This document shows positions 4,394 through 24,647 of a DNA stretch of 36,674 bases, piece after piece. The DNA lies in NCBI GenBank assembly GCA_020832655.1, contig JAFIEF010000030.1, positions 1-36,674 on the forward strand, in the 5' to 3' direction. Position numbers and translations under genes: made by a program. The notes under the pieces were generated by a model. That model was not told the origin of the DNA. It worked only from the letters and a program-made list of their open reading frames with translations, and ran no database searches. The stretch comes from Paracoccaceae bacterium (GTDB lineage Bacteria > Pseudomonadota > Alphaproteobacteria > Rhodobacterales > Rhodobacteraceae). Each line of letters starts with the position of its first letter. Position 1 is the stretch's first letter.

Positions 4394-5091
4394 GCAGGGC
4401 AGAGCGCATCACATGGCAGGCGGTGCAGGATCAGGTGCGCCAGCGCATCAGCCAGCGCCAGTGGAAACCCGGCCAGCAAATCCCGCATGAGGCCGATCTG
4501 GCGCGCGAATTCGGCTGCGCGCGCGCGACAGTCAACCGCGCCCTGCGCGGGCTGGCCGATGCGGGGTTGCTGGAACGTCGCCGCAAGGCAGGAACCCGCG
4601 TGGCGCTGAACCCGGTGCGCCGTGCCGAATTCTCCATCCCCCTGATCCGCGAGGAGATCGAGGCCAAGGGCCAGCGTTTCGGCTTTCGCGTGCTGCGTCG
4701 CGAGATGCGCCTGCCTCCGCCCGAATTGCAGGCCCGGCTTCAGATCGACGGCGCGCAGCCGATCCTCTATCTGCAAACCCTTTATACGGCTGACAGCCAG
4801 CCCTATCTGTTCGAAACCCGCTGGATCAACACACTTGCGGTGCCGTCAGCCGCCGCGGCCGAATTCGCAACGCTCAGCCCGAATGAATGGCTGGTGCGCG
4901 AAGTGGCGTTTGATGGCGGGGATTTCACCTTTTCAGCGATTGCGGCAACTGCGCAAGAGGCCCGGATGCTGGGTTGCAAGATCGGCGAGGGCTTGCTGGT
5001 GCTGGATCGCACGACACGGCATGGCGCGGATATGATCACCTCTGTCCGGCTGGTGTTTCATCGCGGCTACCGGATGCACACCCGCATCTGA
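4390..5091 (+). CDS. hutC: Histidine utilisation repressor, GntR family
   Basis: A transcription factor expected to repress hut genes until urocanate binds. The 233-residue protein has an N-terminal GntR winged helix-turn-helix (about residues 6-72, including FGCARATVNRALRGLADAGL) and a C-terminal UTRA ligand-binding domain (about 90-230). The start is GTG at 4390, overlapping the hutF stop as GTGA. Being in the hutF transcript, which starts at the palindrome it probably binds, it should be autoregulated. The effector and operator are assigned by family and context, not shown directly. The gene ends 15 bases from the convergent flavoprotein gene. Confidence 0.93.
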   Translation: MSRAERITWQAVQDQVRQRISQRQWKPGQQIPHEADLAREFGCARATVNRALRGLADAGLLERRRKAGTRVALNPVRRAEFSIPLIREEIEAKGQRFGFRVLRREMRLPPPELQARLQIDGAQPILYLQTLYTADSQPYLFETRWINTLAVPSAAAAEFATLSPNEWLVREVAFDGGDFTFSAIAATAQEARMLGCKIGEGLLVLDRTTRHGADMITSVRLVFHRGYRMHTRI

Positions 5092-5106
5092 GCGCCCCTG
5101 CCGGGA

Positions 5107-6369
5107 TCAGGCAAAGGCAAAGCGGTCGGGGCGGTAAGGGGCCGGGTCAATGGCCGGGGTCTGACCTGTCAGCAGATCGGCCACCAGAACGCCCGTGCCA
5201 GCCGATTGCGTCAGCCCCAGATGCCCATGCCCGAACGCATGGATCACCCGCGCGCAGCGCGCAGAAAACCCGATCACCGGCAGGCTGTCGGGCATTGACG
5301 GGCGAAACCCCATCCATTCCTTGCCGCCCGCAGCGTTCAGCCCCGGCAGGAAGCCCTGCGCCTTTTGCAGCAATTGCCGCGCGCGGCGGTAATTCGGGGG
5401 CAGGCGCAGCCCGCCCAGTTCCACCGCGCCGCCCACGCGAATGCCCGCGCCGATGCGCGTGGCGACAAAGCCATGATCGGTGAATGTCAGATGCATCCTC
5501 AGATCGAAGCGCGGATCGGGCAGGGTGGTGTTATAGCCGCGCTCGGTTTCCAGCGGCAGGCGTTCGCCCAGGCTGCGCGCCAGCAGATGCGACCATGCGC
5601 CCGCCGCCAGCACCACATGCCCCGCGCGCAGTTCCGCCCCGTCACTGTCCAGCGTCACATGCTGCGCATCAGGGCGCAGCGCGCGGATTTCGCCCTGCAC
5701 CATTTGCCCGCCGCGGGCTTCGAAATTCTGGCGCAGATGGGCATGCCAAAGGGCCGGGTCGGTGACATTGATCCAGCCCGGCGTGAACCCGGCAAAGCGA
5801 AAGCGCGCATCCAGACCGGGCTGCAATTCGGCAATGCGGTCAGGCGCGTCCTCGATCAGCTCAAATTCGATGCCATGTGCGCGCCGCCGCTCCCATCCCG
5901 GCAGGCTGGCGCGGAAGCTGGCGGCGCTGTCATAAAGCTGCATCTGCCCTTCATGGCGCAGCAGATGCCCGGCATCGATATCGGCCACCAGCGCGTTCAG
6001 CGCAGCGCTGGAATGTACCATCAGCGCGGCCTGGGCGCGCAGCGCCGCTGCGTGCCGGTCGCGCCAGCTTGCGCGCCAGAAGCGCAGCATCCAGGGCAGG
6101 ATCTTCAGCGCATAGGCAGGCGGGATCGAAAGCGGCCCCAGCGGGTCCAGCAGCCATTTCGGCGCGCGGCGCATGATGCCGGGGGTGGCCAGCGGTTCGA
6201 CCTCTGCAAAGGCGAATGCCCCGGCATTGCCTTTCGATGCGCTTATGCCGTCAGGGTCGCGTTCGATCACTGTGACAGCAAGCCCGCGGCGCTGCAATTC
6301 CAGCGCGGCGGACAGGCCGATGACCCCGCCACCAACTACCAGCACGTCAGGCGAAGGGGCGCGGCTCAT
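5107..6369 (-). CDS. FAD-dependent D-amino-acid dehydrogenase-like protein (DadA family)
   Basis: A flavoprotein of the DAO superfamily that probably oxidises a D-amino acid or other secondary or primary amine to the imino/keto acid, passing electrons to the respiratory chain. The ATG at 6369 gives 420 residues with the dinucleotide-binding GxGxxG at residues 13-18 (VVGGGVIGLSAALELQRRG) and acidic Glu36 ending the second strand. Further family landmarks are SKGNAGAFAFAEVEPLATPG, VVLAAGAWSH and, near the C-terminus, AFGHGHLGLTQSAGTG. An upstream in-frame start (6405) only adds a poorly conserved 12-residue extension. It converges on hutC with a 15-base gap and no obvious terminator. The exact substrate is not readable from sequence; a link to histidine is only positional. 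Confidence 0.85.
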   Translation of the reverse strand: MSRAPSPDVLVVGGGVIGLSAALELQRRGLAVTVIERDPDGISASKGNAGAFAFAEVEPLATPGIMRRAPKWLLDPLGPLSIPPAYALKILPWMLRFWRASWRDRHAAALRAQAALMVHSSAALNALVADIDAGHLLRHEGQMQLYDSAASFRASLPGWERRRAHGIEFELIEDAPDRIAELQPGLDARFRFAGFTPGWINVTDPALWHAHLRQNFEARGGQMVQGEIRALRPDAQHVTLDSDGAELRAGHVVLAAGAWSHLLARSLGERLPLETERGYNTTLPDPRFDLRMHLTFTDHGFVATRIGAGIRVGGAVELGGLRLPPNYRRARQLLQKAQGFLPGLNAAGGKEWMGFRPSMPDSLPVIGFSARCARVIHAFGHGHLGLTQSAGTGVLVADLLTGQTPAIDPAPYRPDRFAFA

Positions 6370-6556: not shown

Positions 6557-6808
6557 ATGTTTACCATCGAGCATGATTTCGACGCCACCATCATCACGCT
6601 GGTCGATGAAGGGGCCGCGCGGCAGGAAGCGCTGCGCGAGGATGTGATCATCACCGCTTTTGAGGATTGCGTGACCATCCGCCAATTCGACCCGCGCGCG
6701 GATGATGATGCCGTCATCGCGCTATCGCTGGCGCAGTTGCGCGATCTGGCCGCCGCGCTGGACCTGCCCGAAGGCAGTTACCGGCTGACCCCGCCCAAGG
6801 CGCGCTAA
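6557..6808 (+). CDS. Small acidic protein of unknown function
   Basis: An 83-residue reading frame starting MFTIEHDFDATII and ending LTPPKAR. I do not recognise a named family. It is acidic, lacks signal peptide, membrane segment or cysteine pairs, and looks like a compact alpha/beta protein with hydrophobic strands alternating with charged turns (TIITLVDEG, DAVIALSLAQLRDLAAALDLP). A longer frame starting at 6173 is antisense to the flavoprotein gene and was not used. Codon use resembles neighbouring real genes. Its TAA stop is shared with the first bases of the dispersed repeat at 6807, so the repeat may have inserted exactly at the gene end and possibly altered it. Confidence 0.6.
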   Translation: MFTIEHDFDATIITLVDEGAARQEALREDVIITAFEDCVTIRQFDPRADDDAVIALSLAQLRDLAAALDLPEGSYRLTPPKAR

Positions 6809-6943
6809 AGCAATTTCAGAAAAAGTGGACAGAGTTTTTCGCTTGCGCGGACCTTCGGTTCGGTTCGCAATTGTGCCAAAATAAAAGTTTAAAAACAAGT
6901 GGTTAAAGAACTGAAGGCGATTCAACAAAAAGCCGAAACGCTT
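6807..6943 (+). repeat. MITE-like dispersed repeat, copy A
   Basis: A roughly 137-base AT-richer block that recurs in inverted orientation at 24446-24569. The two share long near-identical stretches, including the run around GCGGACCTTCGGTTCGG and the run GGCGATTCAAC. The ends are imperfect terminal inverted repeats (AAAGCAATTTCAG at the left; the right end reads AAGCGTTTCGG on the other strand). Copy A carries an internal hairpin GAAAAAGT-GGACAG-AGTTTTTC with one mismatched pair, and about a dozen more central bases than copy B. No coding capacity is visible. It begins within the stop codon of the preceding small gene. Confidence 0.8.
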
Positions 6944-19864: not shown

Positions 19865-19980
19865 CGGCGGCACCCCTTTTCTTTGTCCCGGCTATGGCTG
19901 GACATAGCGTGCAGGCTTTGCTATGCGACCACTTCCTGCAGTTTATTGCAACTCTAACTTGGAAAGGTGGTGACAACCAC

Positions 19981-20187
19981 ATGCAGGTATCGGTTCGTGA
20001 CAACAATGTCGATCAGGCGCTTCGTGCGCTGAAGAAAAAACTTCAGCGTGAAGGTGTGTTTCGGGAAATGAAGCTCAAGGAGCATTACGAGAAACCCTCT
20101 GAGAAGAAGGCCCGCGAGAAGGCAGAAGCGATCCGCCGTGCGCGCAAACTGGCGCGCAAGAAGGCGCAGCGCGAAGGTCTTTTGTGA
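19981..20187 (+). CDS. rpsU: 30S ribosomal protein S21
   Basis: A 68-residue very basic protein of the small ribosomal subunit, starting [20 protein letters not shown] and ending in an Arg/Lys-rich helix ([17 protein letters not shown]). It acts near the anti-Shine-Dalgarno end of 16S rRNA during initiation. ATG 19981 follows a purine-rich GGAAAGGTGG, and a weak promoter (TTGCTA 19918-19923, TTTATT 19942-19947, 18-base spacer) lies upstream. The transcript ends in two hairpins: a perfect 9-bp stem TCGGGCGCG/CGCGCCCGA (20201-20225), then the intrinsic terminator at 20237, which is duplicated at 22560. Full length and intact. Confidence 0.97.
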
Positions 20188-20236
20188 TCTGACAGGTCAT
20201 TCGGGCGCGGCCCATGCGCGCCCGAGAACAAGCCGA

Positions 20237-20273
20237 CCCCCACAGGCCAGCCCTGCGGGGGTTTTTTCTTGGG
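20237..20273 (+). terminator. rpsU intrinsic terminator = left direct repeat of the R-M cassette
   Basis: CCCCCACAGG pairs with CCTGCGGGGG (one A·C mismatch) around a CCAGC loop, followed by TTTTTTC: a clear intrinsic terminator, 49 bases after the rpsU stop. All 37 bases recur exactly at 22560-22596. The upstream companion hairpin at 20201-20225 is present only here, so this is probably the copy tied to rpsU originally. Confidence 0.9.
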
Positions 20274-20426
20274 TTTTGGGCGGTGCCTGAAAGGGGGGGA
20301 CAGGGTGGAGCTCATCAGCGACATTCATGCGCTTGAAGTTACCCCGCAGCTTTGTGCGCGGTCGCTCATCTTCACCCTTTTGAAACCTTACCGCATGATA
20401 TAGTGTCTTACACAGTTGTATAACTC

Positions 20427-20450
20427 CGCTGACGCCTGCAGAGGTCAGCG
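20427..20450. promoter_or_regulatory. Inverted repeat in the methyltransferase leader
   Basis: CGCTGAC (20427-20433) and GTCAGCG (20444-20450) are perfect 7-bp arms around ten bases that include CTGCAG. The repeat lies between a candidate -10 (TATAAC at 20419-20424, or TATAGT at 20399-20404) and the GGAGG at 20468-20472. It could be an RNA hairpin or an operator for autoregulation by the methyltransferase. No controller (C) protein gene is present. Confidence 0.4.
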
Positions 20451-20478
20451 CAAAAAGGAGCCACAACGGAGGCAGTCT

Positions 20479-21324
20479 GTGCTGGATACCGAAGGCAAAA
20501 TTTTGGAGATTGACGCCAAACCGAAGTTGCGGCGTCAGGAAGTCGCGCACGGCCAAATCTACGAGGGCGACTGCCTGAAGGTCATGTGCCATATTCCAGA
20601 CCAATCCGTCGACATGATCCTTTGTGATCTACCGTATGGAACAACTCAGAATAAATGGGACTCTGTTATCGACCTTGGAAAGCTATGGGTGGAATACCGC
20701 CGGGTAGCAAAGCCCAACGCGGCCATTGTCTTAACGTCCCAAGGCGTATTCACTGCGAAGCTCATACTATCCAACGAGGCGCAGTTCAAATACAAGATTG
20801 TGTGGGAGAAATCGAAGTCCACCAATTTTCTGAACGCGAAAAAACAACCGCTCCGGAAGCACGAGGACATCTGCGTATTTTACGGGAAGCCGCCGACCTA
20901 CAATCCGCAAATGGCGCCGGGTGACCCCTACAACAAAGGAATCCGAAAGGATCAGCTGTCGGGCTCCTACGGGGATTTTTCGCCGTGCCACGTTCAGAGT
21001 GATGGCGAGCGCTACCCGGCCGACATTGTTTACTTCAAGACTGCCGAAAGCGAACCAGAGCGTCAGGTGTGGCATCCGACGCAGAAGCCAGTGGGTTTGG
21101 GCAGATACCTTGTCCGAACCTTCTCGAACCCAGGTGATGTGGTTCTGGACAACGCCTTTGGCTCCGGCAGCTTTCTTCTCGCCGCTTACCTAGAAGGGCG
21201 CAGGTTCATCGGAATCGAGAAGAACGCCGAAAGTTTCCGGTTCAAGAACAACAGCGTGGATTATATCGACGTGGCCGTCAGCAGACTAGAGGCTCACAAG
21301 GCCAAGGTTGATGTAACGCGGTGA
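20479..21324 (+). CDS. Beta-class site-specific DNA methyltransferase (N6-adenine or N4-cytosine)
   Basis: Modification enzyme of a presumed type II system. From GTG 20479 the product has 281 residues. Catalytic motif IV (DLPYG, 50-54) precedes the SAM-binding motif I (NAFGSGSFLLAA, 225-236), with HPTQKP at 199-204 and FIGIEKN at 243-249: the beta-class order, so it methylates an exocyclic amino group. Residues about 100-195 probably contain the recognition region. The start is decided by GGAGG at 20468-20472, six bases upstream; the longer frame from TTG 20416 lacks one. The stop abuts the nuclease stop on the other strand. Base composition differs from neighbours. Target sequence unknown. 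Confidence 0.9.
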   Translation: MLDTEGKILEIDAKPKLRRQEVAHGQIYEGDCLKVMCHIPDQSVDMILCDLPYGTTQNKWDSVIDLGKLWVEYRRVAKPNAAIVLTSQGVFTAKLILSNEAQFKYKIVWEKSKSTNFLNAKKQPLRKHEDICVFYGKPPTYNPQMAPGDPYNKGIRKDQLSGSYGDFSPCHVQSDGERYPADIVYFKTAESEPERQVWHPTQKPVGLGRYLVRTFSNPGDVVLDNAFGSGSFLLAAYLEGRRFIGIEKNAESFRFKNNSVDYIDVAVSRLEAHKAKVDVTR

Positions 21325-22398
21325 TCAGTAATATCCGAACTTGCGCCCACCGGGTCCACGCGTCGTTTTCAGCTCACCCCTGTGGCGCGTCTGCTTAATC
21401 AGACCATCATACTCTGGCGAATTGATAACGACGAACCCTATGTCGAAGTCGGCGCCAGCATCCGATGATCGTTTGAAGACGATCGCGAGGTCGGACCGCT
21501 TACCGCCCGCCACCGGACGGAGGTTTGGTCGACCGGTGGCAGAGTTGATGGCGTCGCCGCTCAATAAAACGCGCCACATTCCGTTATCTTGGCGCCTCGT
21601 GTAAGTTAGGTTGAAGACTGCTCCTGCTGGCGTGCGGAGATTTCGTTCAACCCGTTCTCCCTCAAGCCGGAAATAGGGAACGATGGGCGCAGGGAACTCA
21701 AGGTCGCGACCACCTGCACTTGCTGTTCCGCATTCGAGCCAAGCAACGGTTGCCGACTGCGGTGTGCCGTCGAAGGTAAGTTTAGCTGTGACGTCAAGGA
21801 TGTTCGAAACGGTATCTTCATCTAATACCTCATCTTTAACCTTCTTGTCCGATGCAGCTCTCGCCGTGCGTGCGGCGTTGTAGGCGGCCTTGTACAAGTC
21901 CAGGCCGGTTTGGGTCAGTGGATGAGCAATGTCCCAGAAGGATTGCCATTGTCCTCGCAGACTGGTCGCCTCTTGGACGTTCTCGGAGCTCAATACTACA
22001 CCCGCTTCGGCATTTCGAAGAAGGCCATTGGAAGTGAAGTTTCCGGAGCCCACGTAAGATACGCAAAGATGAGGCTTCGTTGATGACCAAAGCTGATATA
22101 TCTTTGGGTGAAATCGGCAGTGGGGGGATCCAGACGCGAGTCGGACCTCGGAGCCGGGCATGCCGCGAATTTGTTCGATTGCGGCTGGCTGGCTGACAGC
22201 GTCATCTATGCCGACCGCCCAACGGCTGACAGGGATTTCCCGATCAATCGCATCCATGAGTTGAGGAATGCCGGTTACAGTGGCATACGCGACTGCCACG
22301 TCCAAGCGATCAAGATCACCGCAATTTACAGCCTTACCAAAAACACACGCAAACACGGGATCGTCATTGCCCATCTGTGTGACCAATTCATATTTCAT
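21325..22398 (-). CDS. PLD/HKD-family nuclease, probable BfiI-like restriction endonuclease
   Basis: Likely the restriction partner of the convergent methyltransferase. ATG 22398 is chosen because GAGG lies 6 bases upstream; it gives 357 residues. The N-terminal half has a single phospholipase-D-type active site: His97 and Lys99 in FHPKIYQLW, Asn120 in GSGNFTSNGLLR and Glu131 in RNAEAGV. H-x-K and the N-to-E distance of 11 match R.BfiI as I recall it (H105, K107, N125, E136; 358 residues). One HKD motif implies a dimer sharing one active site, and no metal requirement by family. The C-terminal ~165 residues may be the DNA-recognition domain. NgoFVII-like PLD enzymes are an alternative relation. 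Confidence 0.75.
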   Translation of the reverse strand: MKYELVTQMGNDDPVFACVFGKAVNCGDLDRLDVAVAYATVTGIPQLMDAIDREIPVSRWAVGIDDAVSQPAAIEQIRGMPGSEVRLASGSPHCRFHPKIYQLWSSTKPHLCVSYVGSGNFTSNGLLRNAEAGVVLSSENVQEATSLRGQWQSFWDIAHPLTQTGLDLYKAAYNAARTARAASDKKVKDEVLDEDTVSNILDVTAKLTFDGTPQSATVAWLECGTASAGGRDLEFPAPIVPYFRLEGERVERNLRTPAGAVFNLTYTRRQDNGMWRVLLSGDAINSATGRPNLRPVAGGKRSDLAIVFKRSSDAGADFDIGFVVINSPEYDGLIKQTRHRGELKTTRGPGGRKFGYY

Positions 22399-22559
22399 AT
22401 ACATCCTCGCTTCAATTTCAGACCGCAGTCCGATGATTCCATTTATACATTGTGAGCATCAAGCCCCAGACATCTATCATTTTGTCGATGCCAGACGGAT
22501 GAAGCTCATTTAACCGAAATGCAGACATTTGTGCTTCAGGCAACGAACGGCAGCCGCCC

Positions 22560-22596
22560 CCCCCACAGGCCAGCCCTGCGGGGGTTTTTTCTTGGG
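22560..22596 (+). terminator. Orphan copy of the rpsU terminator = right direct repeat
   Basis: Identical over 37 bases to 20237-20273, including stem, loop and T-run, in the same orientation. No plus-strand gene ends just upstream: the nearest gene to the left is the nuclease, transcribed the other way from 22398. The terminator therefore makes sense as a duplication scar. It would insulate rmuC from read-through. The rest of the gap 22399-22819 shows no gene; AGCCG just before the repeat and GGGGGAC about 22 bases after it also recur around the left copy. Confidence 0.85.
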
Positions 22597-22819
22597 GTTG
22601 GGGCTTTTGGCGAGCTTTGGGGGACGGCTTCGAGGCCGCGTCGAATACTGCAGACGCAACGGGTGGCGCCATCCCTGACACGCACAGTTATTGCAAGCCC
22701 CCCACACACACCGCCCCAAGAGCGTGATCGCGCGCGAAGCCGGGCCGCGGCCGGGTGCGAAAAGCGCTTGATCTCACAGCCTCTTCGTCCGACCTTCAGA
22801 TCAAAGTCAGGAGGGCGCG

Positions 22820-24256
22820 ATGACATTCGACAATATCGATACTGGGCTGCTCAACCTGCTGGGATTGCTGCTGGTGGGCCTGGTGGTTCTTATCCTGTTG
22901 ATACGCAAGCCAAACCATGGCGATCCGGAACTGAAGTCGGAAATCGCCGAACTGCGGCAAACCGTGTTGTCCAAAGACAGTGAACTACGAGAGGCCTGGA
23001 AGAACGCTGACAAATTCGAAGCACTTGCTGGCGAGCGAAAAGAGGAAATCGAAAGACTGAATGGCGATCTGTCCAAACTGCGCATGAAGCTGGAAGGTGA
23101 AGCGGAGGAACAGAAAAATCTGTCCAGCAAGATTTCGCGCCTTGAAGCCGAAATGAAAGCCGAGCGGAACGCCGCTGGAGAAAAAATTGACATGCTGTCC
23201 AAGCTGCGAGCCGACATGGAGGCCAAGTTCAAAGAACTCGCGGCAGAAGCGCTTAAACTGCAAGGCGAACAATTTTCTAAAGCAAACATTGAAAGGTTGC
23301 AGGCCACGCTGACCCCCTTGAAGGAACATGTTGGTCATTTTGAACGGGAATTGAAGGCGGTTCACAAAGCCACGCTAGAGGATCGGGCCGCCTTGAAAGC
23401 AGAAATAAACCAGTTGAGCCAGCGTTCGGAGGCCATCTCTCAAGAAGCTGTGGCGCTGACTCGCGCGCTCAGATCAGACCAGCAAAAGCAAGGGGCTTGG
23501 GGGGAGATGATCCTTGAAAGCATCCTCAAGCGTTCAGGCCTTCGCGAGGGAATCGAATACCATACGCAAGCACATCGGACAGGTGACGGTGGTGAACGCC
23601 TGCGCCCGGATGTTATTGTGAACATCCCCGGCGGCAAAACCCTGGTTGTCGACAGCAAAGTATCGTTGGTGGCCTATACAGACGCCGTGAACGCTGAGAC
23701 GGATGAGCAGGCTCTGTCAGCGCGCAAACGCCATGTTGCGTCGCTTCGTGGTCACATCAATGGGCTGTCGGCCAAGGGCTACCAGAATGCAGAGAATTCC
23801 ACAGTCGACTATGTGATCCTGTTTGTGCCCATCGAAGGCGCATTGTCGGAGGCATTGCGCGAAGATGGTCAGATCACCGAATTCGCTCTGGACAAGAACG
23901 TCACTATTGCAACACCTACTACGCTCATGATGGCGCTGAAGACAGTGGCGAATGTCTGGGCTGTCGAGCGGCGGAACCAGAATGCCGAAGCCATCGCAAC
24001 CCGTGCAGGCCGTCTTTATGACAAAGTGGTGGGATTCGTAGATAATATGGAGAATGTCGGCAAACGATTGGATCAAGCACAAGATGCTTATCAGGATGCC
24101 TTTGGTCAATTGTCGCGCGGACGTGGCAACCTGCTGTCGCAGGTGGAAAGCCTCAAAGCGCTCGGGGCAAAAACCAGCAAAGTGCTATCAGTCGACTTCG
24201 AGGACATCGACGGAGAAGTGGCGCAGATAGAAGCGCGCGGTGAAAATGGCGACTGA
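22820..24256 (+). CDS. rmuC: DNA recombination protein RmuC
   Basis: A 478-residue protein of a family that limits recombination at inverted repeats and is thought to be a nuclease. One N-terminal membrane segment (about 8-28, LLNLLGLLLVGLVVLILLI) is followed by a long coiled coil (about 35-210, rich in heptads of Glu/Lys/Leu). The conserved domain starts with GAWGEMILESILKRSGL and holds a PD-(D/E)xK-like core, RPDVIVNIPGGK followed by VVDSKVSL. AGGAGG precedes the ATG. Base composition is somewhat lower in GC than neighbours (row 23161-23220 counts 34 of 60), so it may have been acquired with the adjacent R-M cassette or simply reflect its Lys/Glu-rich coiled coil. Confidence 0.93.
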   Translation: MTFDNIDTGLLNLLGLLLVGLVVLILLIRKPNHGDPELKSEIAELRQTVLSKDSELREAWKNADKFEALAGERKEEIERLNGDLSKLRMKLEGEAEEQKNLSSKISRLEAEMKAERNAAGEKIDMLSKLRADMEAKFKELAAEALKLQGEQFSKANIERLQATLTPLKEHVGHFERELKAVHKATLEDRAALKAEINQLSQRSEAISQEAVALTRALRSDQQKQGAWGEMILESILKRSGLREGIEYHTQAHRTGDGGERLRPDVIVNIPGGKTLVVDSKVSLVAYTDAVNAETDEQALSARKRHVASLRGHINGLSAKGYQNAENSTVDYVILFVPIEGALSEALREDGQITEFALDKNVTIATPTTLMMALKTVANVWAVERRNQNAEAIATRAGRLYDKVVGFVDNMENVGKRLDQAQDAYQDAFGQLSRGRGNLLSQVESLKALGAKTSKVLSVDFEDIDGEVAQIEARGENGD

Positions 24257-24445
24257 AACAGACCACATTGTTTGTTTCCAGCGTCTACTGAACATGCTTA
24301 CATCCTGTCACTGCCCCCTGTAGCGCTCGGGTTAATTGACATGGGATTTGGGTCAGAGATGTGATCACAGGCATGATGACGGCGCCAACATCGTTGGATA
24401 TTGGCGAGTAGCACGCTTATGTAGCATTGATCAGCTTACGCTGTT

Positions 24446-24569
24446 AAAGCGTTTCGGCTTTTCGTTGAATCGCCTTCAATGCTTTAACCTTATATTTTTT
24501 CGCAATTTCGAACCGAACCGAAGGTCCGCGCAAGCGAAAAAGTCTGTCAACTTTTTCTGAAATTGCTTT
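24446..24569 (-). repeat. MITE-like dispersed repeat, copy B
   Basis: Inverted relative to copy A at 6807-6943 and about a dozen bases shorter. Reading the minus strand it starts AAAGCAATTTCAG, contains a perfect hairpin GAAAAAGT-TGACAG-ACTTTTTC, and ends GCCGAAACGCTTT. The ends are imperfect terminal inverted repeats (AAAGCAATTTC versus AAAGCGTTTC). It lies in the gap between rmuC and the RHH gene; the other 190 bases of that gap (24257-24445) show no gene. No target-site duplication could be identified with confidence. Confidence 0.8.
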
Positions 24570-24647
24570 GACGCAGCGAATGTCCCCTCCGCCCCGCATA
24601 GCTGCCGGTCGGGTGGCAATTGGCGCATTGCTGCGCAAAGGGGGACG

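Follow-up and report, generated by a model that had tools for sequence, protein, structure and literature searches.

A putative restriction-modification cassette between two copies of the rpsU terminator in a Paracoccaceae genome

How small restriction-modification (R-M) and other defence cassettes that lack a recombinase enter chromosomes is, to our knowledge, poorly understood. The question is raised by a 36,674-bp stretch of one contig (JAFIEF010000030.1; hereafter the window) of a Paracoccaceae bacterium whose draft genome (GCA_020832655.1; G000) comprises 3.24 Mb in 121 contigs: here, directly behind rpsU, the conserved gene for ribosomal protein bS21, a predicted DNA methyltransferase gene and a putative nuclease gene lie between two identical copies of the rpsU terminator. 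We favour, at a probability of about 0.68, the reading that a horizontally acquired two-gene R-M cassette was inserted behind rpsU by a recombinase-free route, with a terminator copy ending up on each side.

The preliminary description of this DNA reported an exact, same-orientation duplicate of the rpsU terminator 2.3 kb away, and this stands: a 37-bp sequence occurs twice as a perfect direct repeat with a start-to-start spacing of 2323 bp (Table 1). Extending the repeat without gaps gives 43 of 45 identical nucleotides, the right-hand similarity past the 37 bp being marginal (anchored score 4, equalled by 5.3% of 5000 random pairs) and the left-hand similarity nil in the same anchored comparison. 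Local comparison of the 100-bp flanks of both copies found wider homology at chance level only, which counts against a large segmental duplication. A search of the 3.24-Mb genome allowing up to three mismatches returned these two copies and no third, so that the possibility of a common genomic repeat, which the preliminary description had allowed for, is rejected. The pair is also the sole exact direct repeat of at least 30 bp at 200–10,000 bp spacing in the window, and no such repeat occurs in 667,058 bases of comparison loci, a base-rate set of stretches from the same genome and from relatives that excludes the Erythrobacter loci, among them one (L184, see below) that does have such a repeat. 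The left copy begins 49 nt past the rpsU stop codon and folds at -19.7 kcal/mol (shuffle mean -12.6; equalled by 0 of 200 shuffles), while the right copy, less distinctive in its C-rich context, folds at -17.1 kcal/mol and is equalled by 13 of 200. A consensus scan of positions 19900–22900 detected five terminator-like sites including both copies (3.5 expected by chance) and one promoter-like site (1.3 expected), and alone it says little because these counts are near chance expectation. The bracketing of the two genes by the repeat is a confirmed observation.

Table 1. Features of the rpsU region, in window coordinates.
Feature	Position	Strand	Basis
rpsU (bS21), conserved gene whose 3' side is the target	19981..20187	+	match in 53 of the 60 genomes searched, this one among them
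Left repeat copy, intrinsic rpsU terminator	20237..20273	+	exact repeat; fold; similar hairpin behind rpsU in 31 relatives
Beta-class DNA methyltransferase (N6_N4_Mtase), predicted	20416..21324	+	PF01555; PADLOC MTase_II; RsrI methylase structure
PLD-superfamily nuclease, putative BfiI-like restriction endonuclease	21325..22404	-	PF13091; RE_NgoFVII; motif shared with Erythrobacter copy
Right repeat copy, displaced or duplicated terminator	22560..22596	+	exact repeat; fold
rmuC-type gene right of the repeat	22820..24256	+	PF02646 (3.2e-100); GC 0.535; elsewhere in relatives with a similar copy
Dispersed repeat of about 125 bp, right end of low-GC block	24441..24572		genome search

Comparison with the genus places this duplication in an evolutionary context. 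Gene order left of rpsU is largely conserved: the COQ9 gene (PF08511) upstream of rpsU here is also beside rpsU in 17 of 22 genus rpsU loci, and some of the remaining five are truncated. We read the 3' side of rpsU in 31 other genus genomes (29 from loci L002–L030, plus G015 and G019), and in every one a C-rich/G-rich hairpin with a T-rich tail follows the gene (30 parsed by script; G034, locus L024, by eye). None of 29 relatives carries a second copy of its own terminator, the best second matches having at least 10 mismatches over 32–35 nt as against 0 in the window; the reach downstream was at least 9.5 kb in 16 of these genomes, 3–4.6 kb in five and 0.1–1.4 kb in eight, with G034 (unparsed) and G008 (73 nt downstream) left out. 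Relatives that lack the two genes and yet carry two terminators, the pattern that the preliminary description had named as speaking against an insertion, were thus not seen among these 29 at their differing reach. The hairpin sequence of G000 itself occurs in 0 of the 30 parsed relatives, the nearest being those of G012 and G021 with two differences in 25 positions, and hairpin loops vary between species. Since no parsed relative shares the G000 hairpin, the two copies are best regarded as siblings and not as independent imports, and since loops differ between species, their identity points to duplication in this lineage or to import from a near-identical donor. G000 has a single rpsU match; G033 has two, its second rpsU locus (L099) having been left unparsed.

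Within the interval the open reading frame (ORF) list shows no further convincing gene, in agreement with the earlier statement that it holds only a methyltransferase and a nuclease. The longest methyltransferase ORF starts with TTG at 20416, although a reading of the sequence makes the GTG at 20479, preceded by GGAGG, the likelier start. The product matches PF01555 at 1.1e-25, above the cut-off, PADLOC MTase_II at 5.6e-61 and the RsrI methylase structure at 5.6e-16, and is by these matches predicted to be the DNA methyltransferase expected of a Type II R-M system. The two genes are convergent and abut, their stop codons standing side by side (TGATCA, 21322–21327) with no terminator between them, and the right repeat copy is oriented to halt plus-strand read-through from the methyltransferase gene. 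The view that this copy ends no visible gene therefore holds in part: it is nobody's dedicated terminator, but its orientation suits it to stopping methyltransferase read-through.

BfiI-like PLD restriction enzymes have a catalytic HxK...N...E motif, and BfiI itself has two methyltransferase genes and a C-terminal B3-like DNA-binding domain. The nuclease predicted here carries this motif as H99xK101...GSxN122...E133, kept in the Erythrobacter copy in a two-sequence alignment, and H99, K101, N122 and E133 line up with BfiI (PDB 2c1l) in a match that is not significant (E 0.12; 0.081 with a single sequence). The likeness to BfiI and other PLD-type restriction nucleases extends to length (359 aa here, 358 aa in BfiI) and to an adjoining methyltransferase, whereas the sequence match is marginal and a single methyltransferase gene is present here. 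The best solved-structure match is a putative helicase chain (7clg), over 80–90 residues with the same motif (E 0.002 and 0.00032). We take the gene pair to be a small R-M system with a BfiI-like nuclease, its restriction activity putative and its Type II assignment presumptive.

Scanning genome contigs with the methyltransferase yielded 11 loci, one of which, L184 of Erythrobacter sp. EC-HK427, again has a convergent, abutting PLD nuclease gene. The methyltransferases are 75% identical over 255 aa and the nucleases 34% over 365 aligned positions, and because the arrangement recurs, the pairing is not accidental, which upholds the initial description of the two genes as R-M-like. Five other loci with a methyltransferase relative (L185–L188 and L082, from Paracoccus, Brevundimonas, two Planctomycetota and a viral contig pair) have a same-strand gene of 906–925 aa beside it in place of the PLD nuclease, which suggests partner swapping around one methyltransferase type. 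Six plasmid records matched window DNA 20400–22450, with a methyltransferase gene beneath every match.

The nuclease is more sparsely represented. Searches with it found no relatives in viral contigs or in genome contigs; one record of a phage collection matches it with 37% covered, and ten plasmid records match, eight weakly and two from Roseomonas at 30% identity with 91% covered. On the two Roseomonas plasmids (L195 and L196, approximately 5001–5972) the matching PLD nuclease belongs to the same family and is encoded by an ORF that lacks annotation. This ORF is flanked on one side by an SNF2-related gene and on the other by a methyltransferase and a DEAD/DEAH helicase, with a site-specific integrase and VapBC upstream; the cluster is perhaps a multi-gene defence system. 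Among 394 genomes of the family, ten besides G000 match the nuclease weakly (best 32% over 158 aa), and of the corresponding loci (L069–L079) L075 alone has a methyltransferase match, over a 53-aa stretch.

The cassette was probably gained in this lineage. A methyltransferase orthologue was found in none of 36 other genus genomes, 31 of which gave short, weak matches (best-scoring 56 residues at E 6e-10; longest 137 residues at 35%). The guanine-plus-cytosine (GC) contents of the two cargo genes are 0.535 and 0.548, compared with 0.640 for the left-hand 10 kb and 0.651 on the right side, and GC at third codon positions differs likewise.

To the right of the cassette, conservation with relatives breaks down. 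A copy of the adjacent rmuC-type gene at 70–72% identity is present in six other genus genomes; G026 shows a fragment (59%), three genomes reach 36–37%, and the rest give a distant match or none. In the loci fetched around the relatives' similar rmuC copies, neither rpsU nor any gene from the rpsU side was found, and in 22 genus rpsU loci none of the window's right-hand genes stands beside rpsU; rmuC is probably a separate acquisition. In G019 an ORF bearing a tyrosine-recombinase motif is found roughly 6 kb away from the similar rmuC (L107, 9191–10477). Behind rpsU in G012, G018 and G021 is an ABC transporter operon; in G000 its orthologue (91%) follows a different gene on contig C47, as judged by eye. 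The DNA between the right repeat and rmuC gave matches of 25–32 nt only, in 4 of 36 other genomes, and so revealed no empty site from the right-hand end. The low-GC block ends in a dispersed repeat with at least 41 matches in G000, its own included (query 24260–24640; 40 of 59 candidates scored), nearly all within query positions 182–313; beyond it are RHH_4 and DUF4169 genes that are absent beside rpsU in the relatives' loci examined. The dispersed repeat also occurs at window positions 6807–6943, several of its genomic copies lie at contig ends, and it may coincide with assembly breaks and sites of rearrangement. The DNA to the right of rpsU has thus been rebuilt, and rmuC may be a further newcomer. 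The preliminary description had proposed to look for an empty site in the rpsU–rmuC interval of relatives; that interval could not serve, as other genes follow rpsU there and rmuC lies elsewhere in those relatives with a similar copy.

On the history that we favour, the two-gene cassette would have arrived horizontally and inserted just behind the rpsU coding region, leaving one rpsU terminator copy on each side. The left copy would keep terminating rpsU, so the host gene would be unharmed; the right copy would be the displaced or duplicated terminator and may halt methyltransferase read-through toward rmuC. Two routes fit equally, namely insertion with a long target duplication, or one-sided homologous recombination through rpsU and its terminator with a near-identical donor, followed by illegitimate joining just upstream of the resident terminator. 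A recombinase-free route appears likeliest because the cassette has no recognisable recombinase. A narrow scan with two motif patterns found neither a tyrosine- nor a serine-recombinase signature, whether in the window or in the 22 rpsU loci fetched from relatives, in line with the preliminary description; terminal inverted repeats at the cassette ends are not above chance, and the ORF list likewise shows no insertion sequence or integrase. Restriction activity, foreign origin, the order of events and the joining mechanism are the parts of this history that we infer.

Both routes have published counterparts. Nobusato et al. in 2000 and Furuta et al. in 2010 reportedly described the insertion of R-M genes with long target duplication. 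In the published accounts, R-M insertions have long, variable target duplications "in the order of 100 bp" (PMC3874152; also PMC3031569, PMC1643837), and some other R-M units, those with short duplications, carry imperfect inverted repeats (PMC3874152). The present locus shares with the former R-M genes without a recombinase inside a direct duplication of the target, with restriction by the nuclease putative here, and the parallel drawn in the preliminary description with work from the Kobayashi group fits these accounts. It differs from them in a repeat of 37 bp and not about 100 bp, in a target that is the terminator of a ribosomal-protein gene, and in that no empty-site strain was compared. 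Homology-facilitated illegitimate recombination, described for transformable bacteria (PMC2884548), is a process of which the second route would be an instance. Homology on one side, combined with illegitimate joining on the other, could push the resident end aside as seen at thiC in the Erythrobacter group; at rpsU this would need a near-identical donor terminator and is a proposal only. Titles and abstract openings of the open-licence literature yielded no report of rpsU or a terminator as an integration site. We classify the locus as a new case within the known class of insertion with long target duplication.

The Erythrobacter locus offers a second view of a displaced gene end. At L184 the nuclease ORF starts 12 bp past a displaced 134-bp copy of the 3' end of thiC (PF01964, 1.5e-185), which is identical to the in-gene end at 131 of 134 positions; among 29 other thiC loci, six align over at least 90 nt, the best at 84.8% over 92 nt. 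Between the two thiC copies are a DUF4160 gene and a second small ORF, presumably DUF2442, and the R-M pair is placed beyond the repeat, with the displaced thiC end on one side of it and on the other a gene that is also downstream of thiC in four of eight other regions read, partial matches among them. Since the pair is beside and not between the thiC 3' copies, L184 is a neighbouring parallel, not the same structure as at rpsU. A thiC match was obtained in 38 of 40 Erythrobacter-group genomes, and three of the 38 (G453, to which L184 belongs; G458; G461) have a second, downstream thiC 3' end, at 84% over 300 bp (251/300) in G461 and 66% over 47 aa in G458. Displaced thiC 3' ends with other sequence between the copies are seen at L184 (7842–8615), L229 and L230, and the 3' side of thiC is a possible insertion hot spot in this group. 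The diverged second copies would fit a foreign 3' end having displaced the resident one, while the near-identical pair in G453 would fit target duplication or a conspecific donor. The thiC case thus gives a hint of recombinase-free insertion behind conserved genes.

Several observations weigh against an acquired R-M cassette inserted in this way. The nuclease matches PF13091 at 9.2e-5 and RE_NgoFVII (PF09565) at 3.3e-4, both under the curated Pfam cut-offs, and restriction is putative. No PLD partner was found at the other ten genome loci or at three viral loci with a related methyltransferase. Genus coverage in the nuclease search amounts to G029, which with G000 makes up the genus members among the 394 family genomes. 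Low GC is by itself no proof of foreign origin, because rpsU too has a GC of 0.546. One strain of the species was compared and the G000 right flank is beside rpsU in no relative fetched, so that there is no orthologous empty site, as follows from rmuC being of low GC and not a usual neighbour of rpsU. The repeat falls short of the published length of about 100 bp. At L184, as noted, the repeat brackets the DUF4160 segment and leaves the R-M pair outside, and in G482 the two small genes follow thiC at a distance of 0.74 kb, with no second thiC end present. With these points taken into account, the cassette is well supported as an insertion scar; its reading as a mobile unit that uses the rpsU terminator as an att-like landing site is unproven.

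That last notion, put forward in the preliminary description, leads to the rival account that survives best, although we consider it unlikely: site-specific integration, in which the repeats would be attL and attR, the rpsU terminator attB, and the integrase lost or supplied in trans. The repeats are att-like in that they are direct, give a conserved transcription unit its end back and number just two in the genome, and the locus shares direct repeats at a conserved gene end with integrase-defined islands at gene 3' ends and tRNA genes. In contrast to such islands, the window has no tRNA gene and shows no site-specific recombinase in the two-motif scan or the ORF list, and the motifs are equally unmatched in the 22 rpsU loci. 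The cassette measures only 2.3 kb, and nothing shows repeated use of the site, other cargo between rpsU-terminator repeats not having been found.

Slightly less probable is a deletion or rearrangement scar. On this account the right side once held another rpsU-terminator unit, or a larger segment that had been duplicated, which decayed to its terminator, and the R-M pair arrived independently. The break of synteny at rpsU is consistent with this, the ABC-transporter gene that adjoins rpsU in G012, G018 and G021 standing on another contig in G000, as are the nearby dispersed repeat with its at least 41 matches, and the two rpsU matches of G033. No rpsU-like sequence was found left of the right copy, however, the flanks are at chance level, and G000 itself has one rpsU match.

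We give still less weight to a terminator that arose as a copy, by template switching for instance, and was retained by selection as insulation of the right-hand genes from the methyltransferase transcript, an account that is silent on how the genes arrived. The convergent nuclease gene follows too closely for the methyltransferase gene to have a terminator in between, and the right copy has a suitable orientation; yet selection would keep a hairpin and T-tract, not 37 identical bases including the loop and the positions after the T-tract, and the loops of relatives vary. An assembly artefact, conceivable in a draft of 121 contigs, is highly improbable, as the repeat is far below normal read length, lies mid-contig with differing extensions of its copies, and encloses a real gene pair found elsewhere.

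The value of an insertion behind rpsU, if it is one, lies in what it makes accessible. A unique, lineage-specific terminator duplication around a cassette provides a testable junction, and since the gene pair recurs at another locus next to a displaced gene end, the hypothesis can be pursued by searching for displaced terminators and gene 3' ends that flank defence genes. Terminators and 3' ends of conserved genes could conceivably be general recombinase-free landing sites for small defence cassettes, which would enter by recombining with homologous sequence in the conserved gene or its terminator and drive the resident end downstream as a copy, so that the rpsU case and the three-genome thiC cases would be one process; we hold this generalisation to be doubtful. 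A cassette that settles directly behind a terminator would do no harm to the host gene, and its own genes would be insulated.

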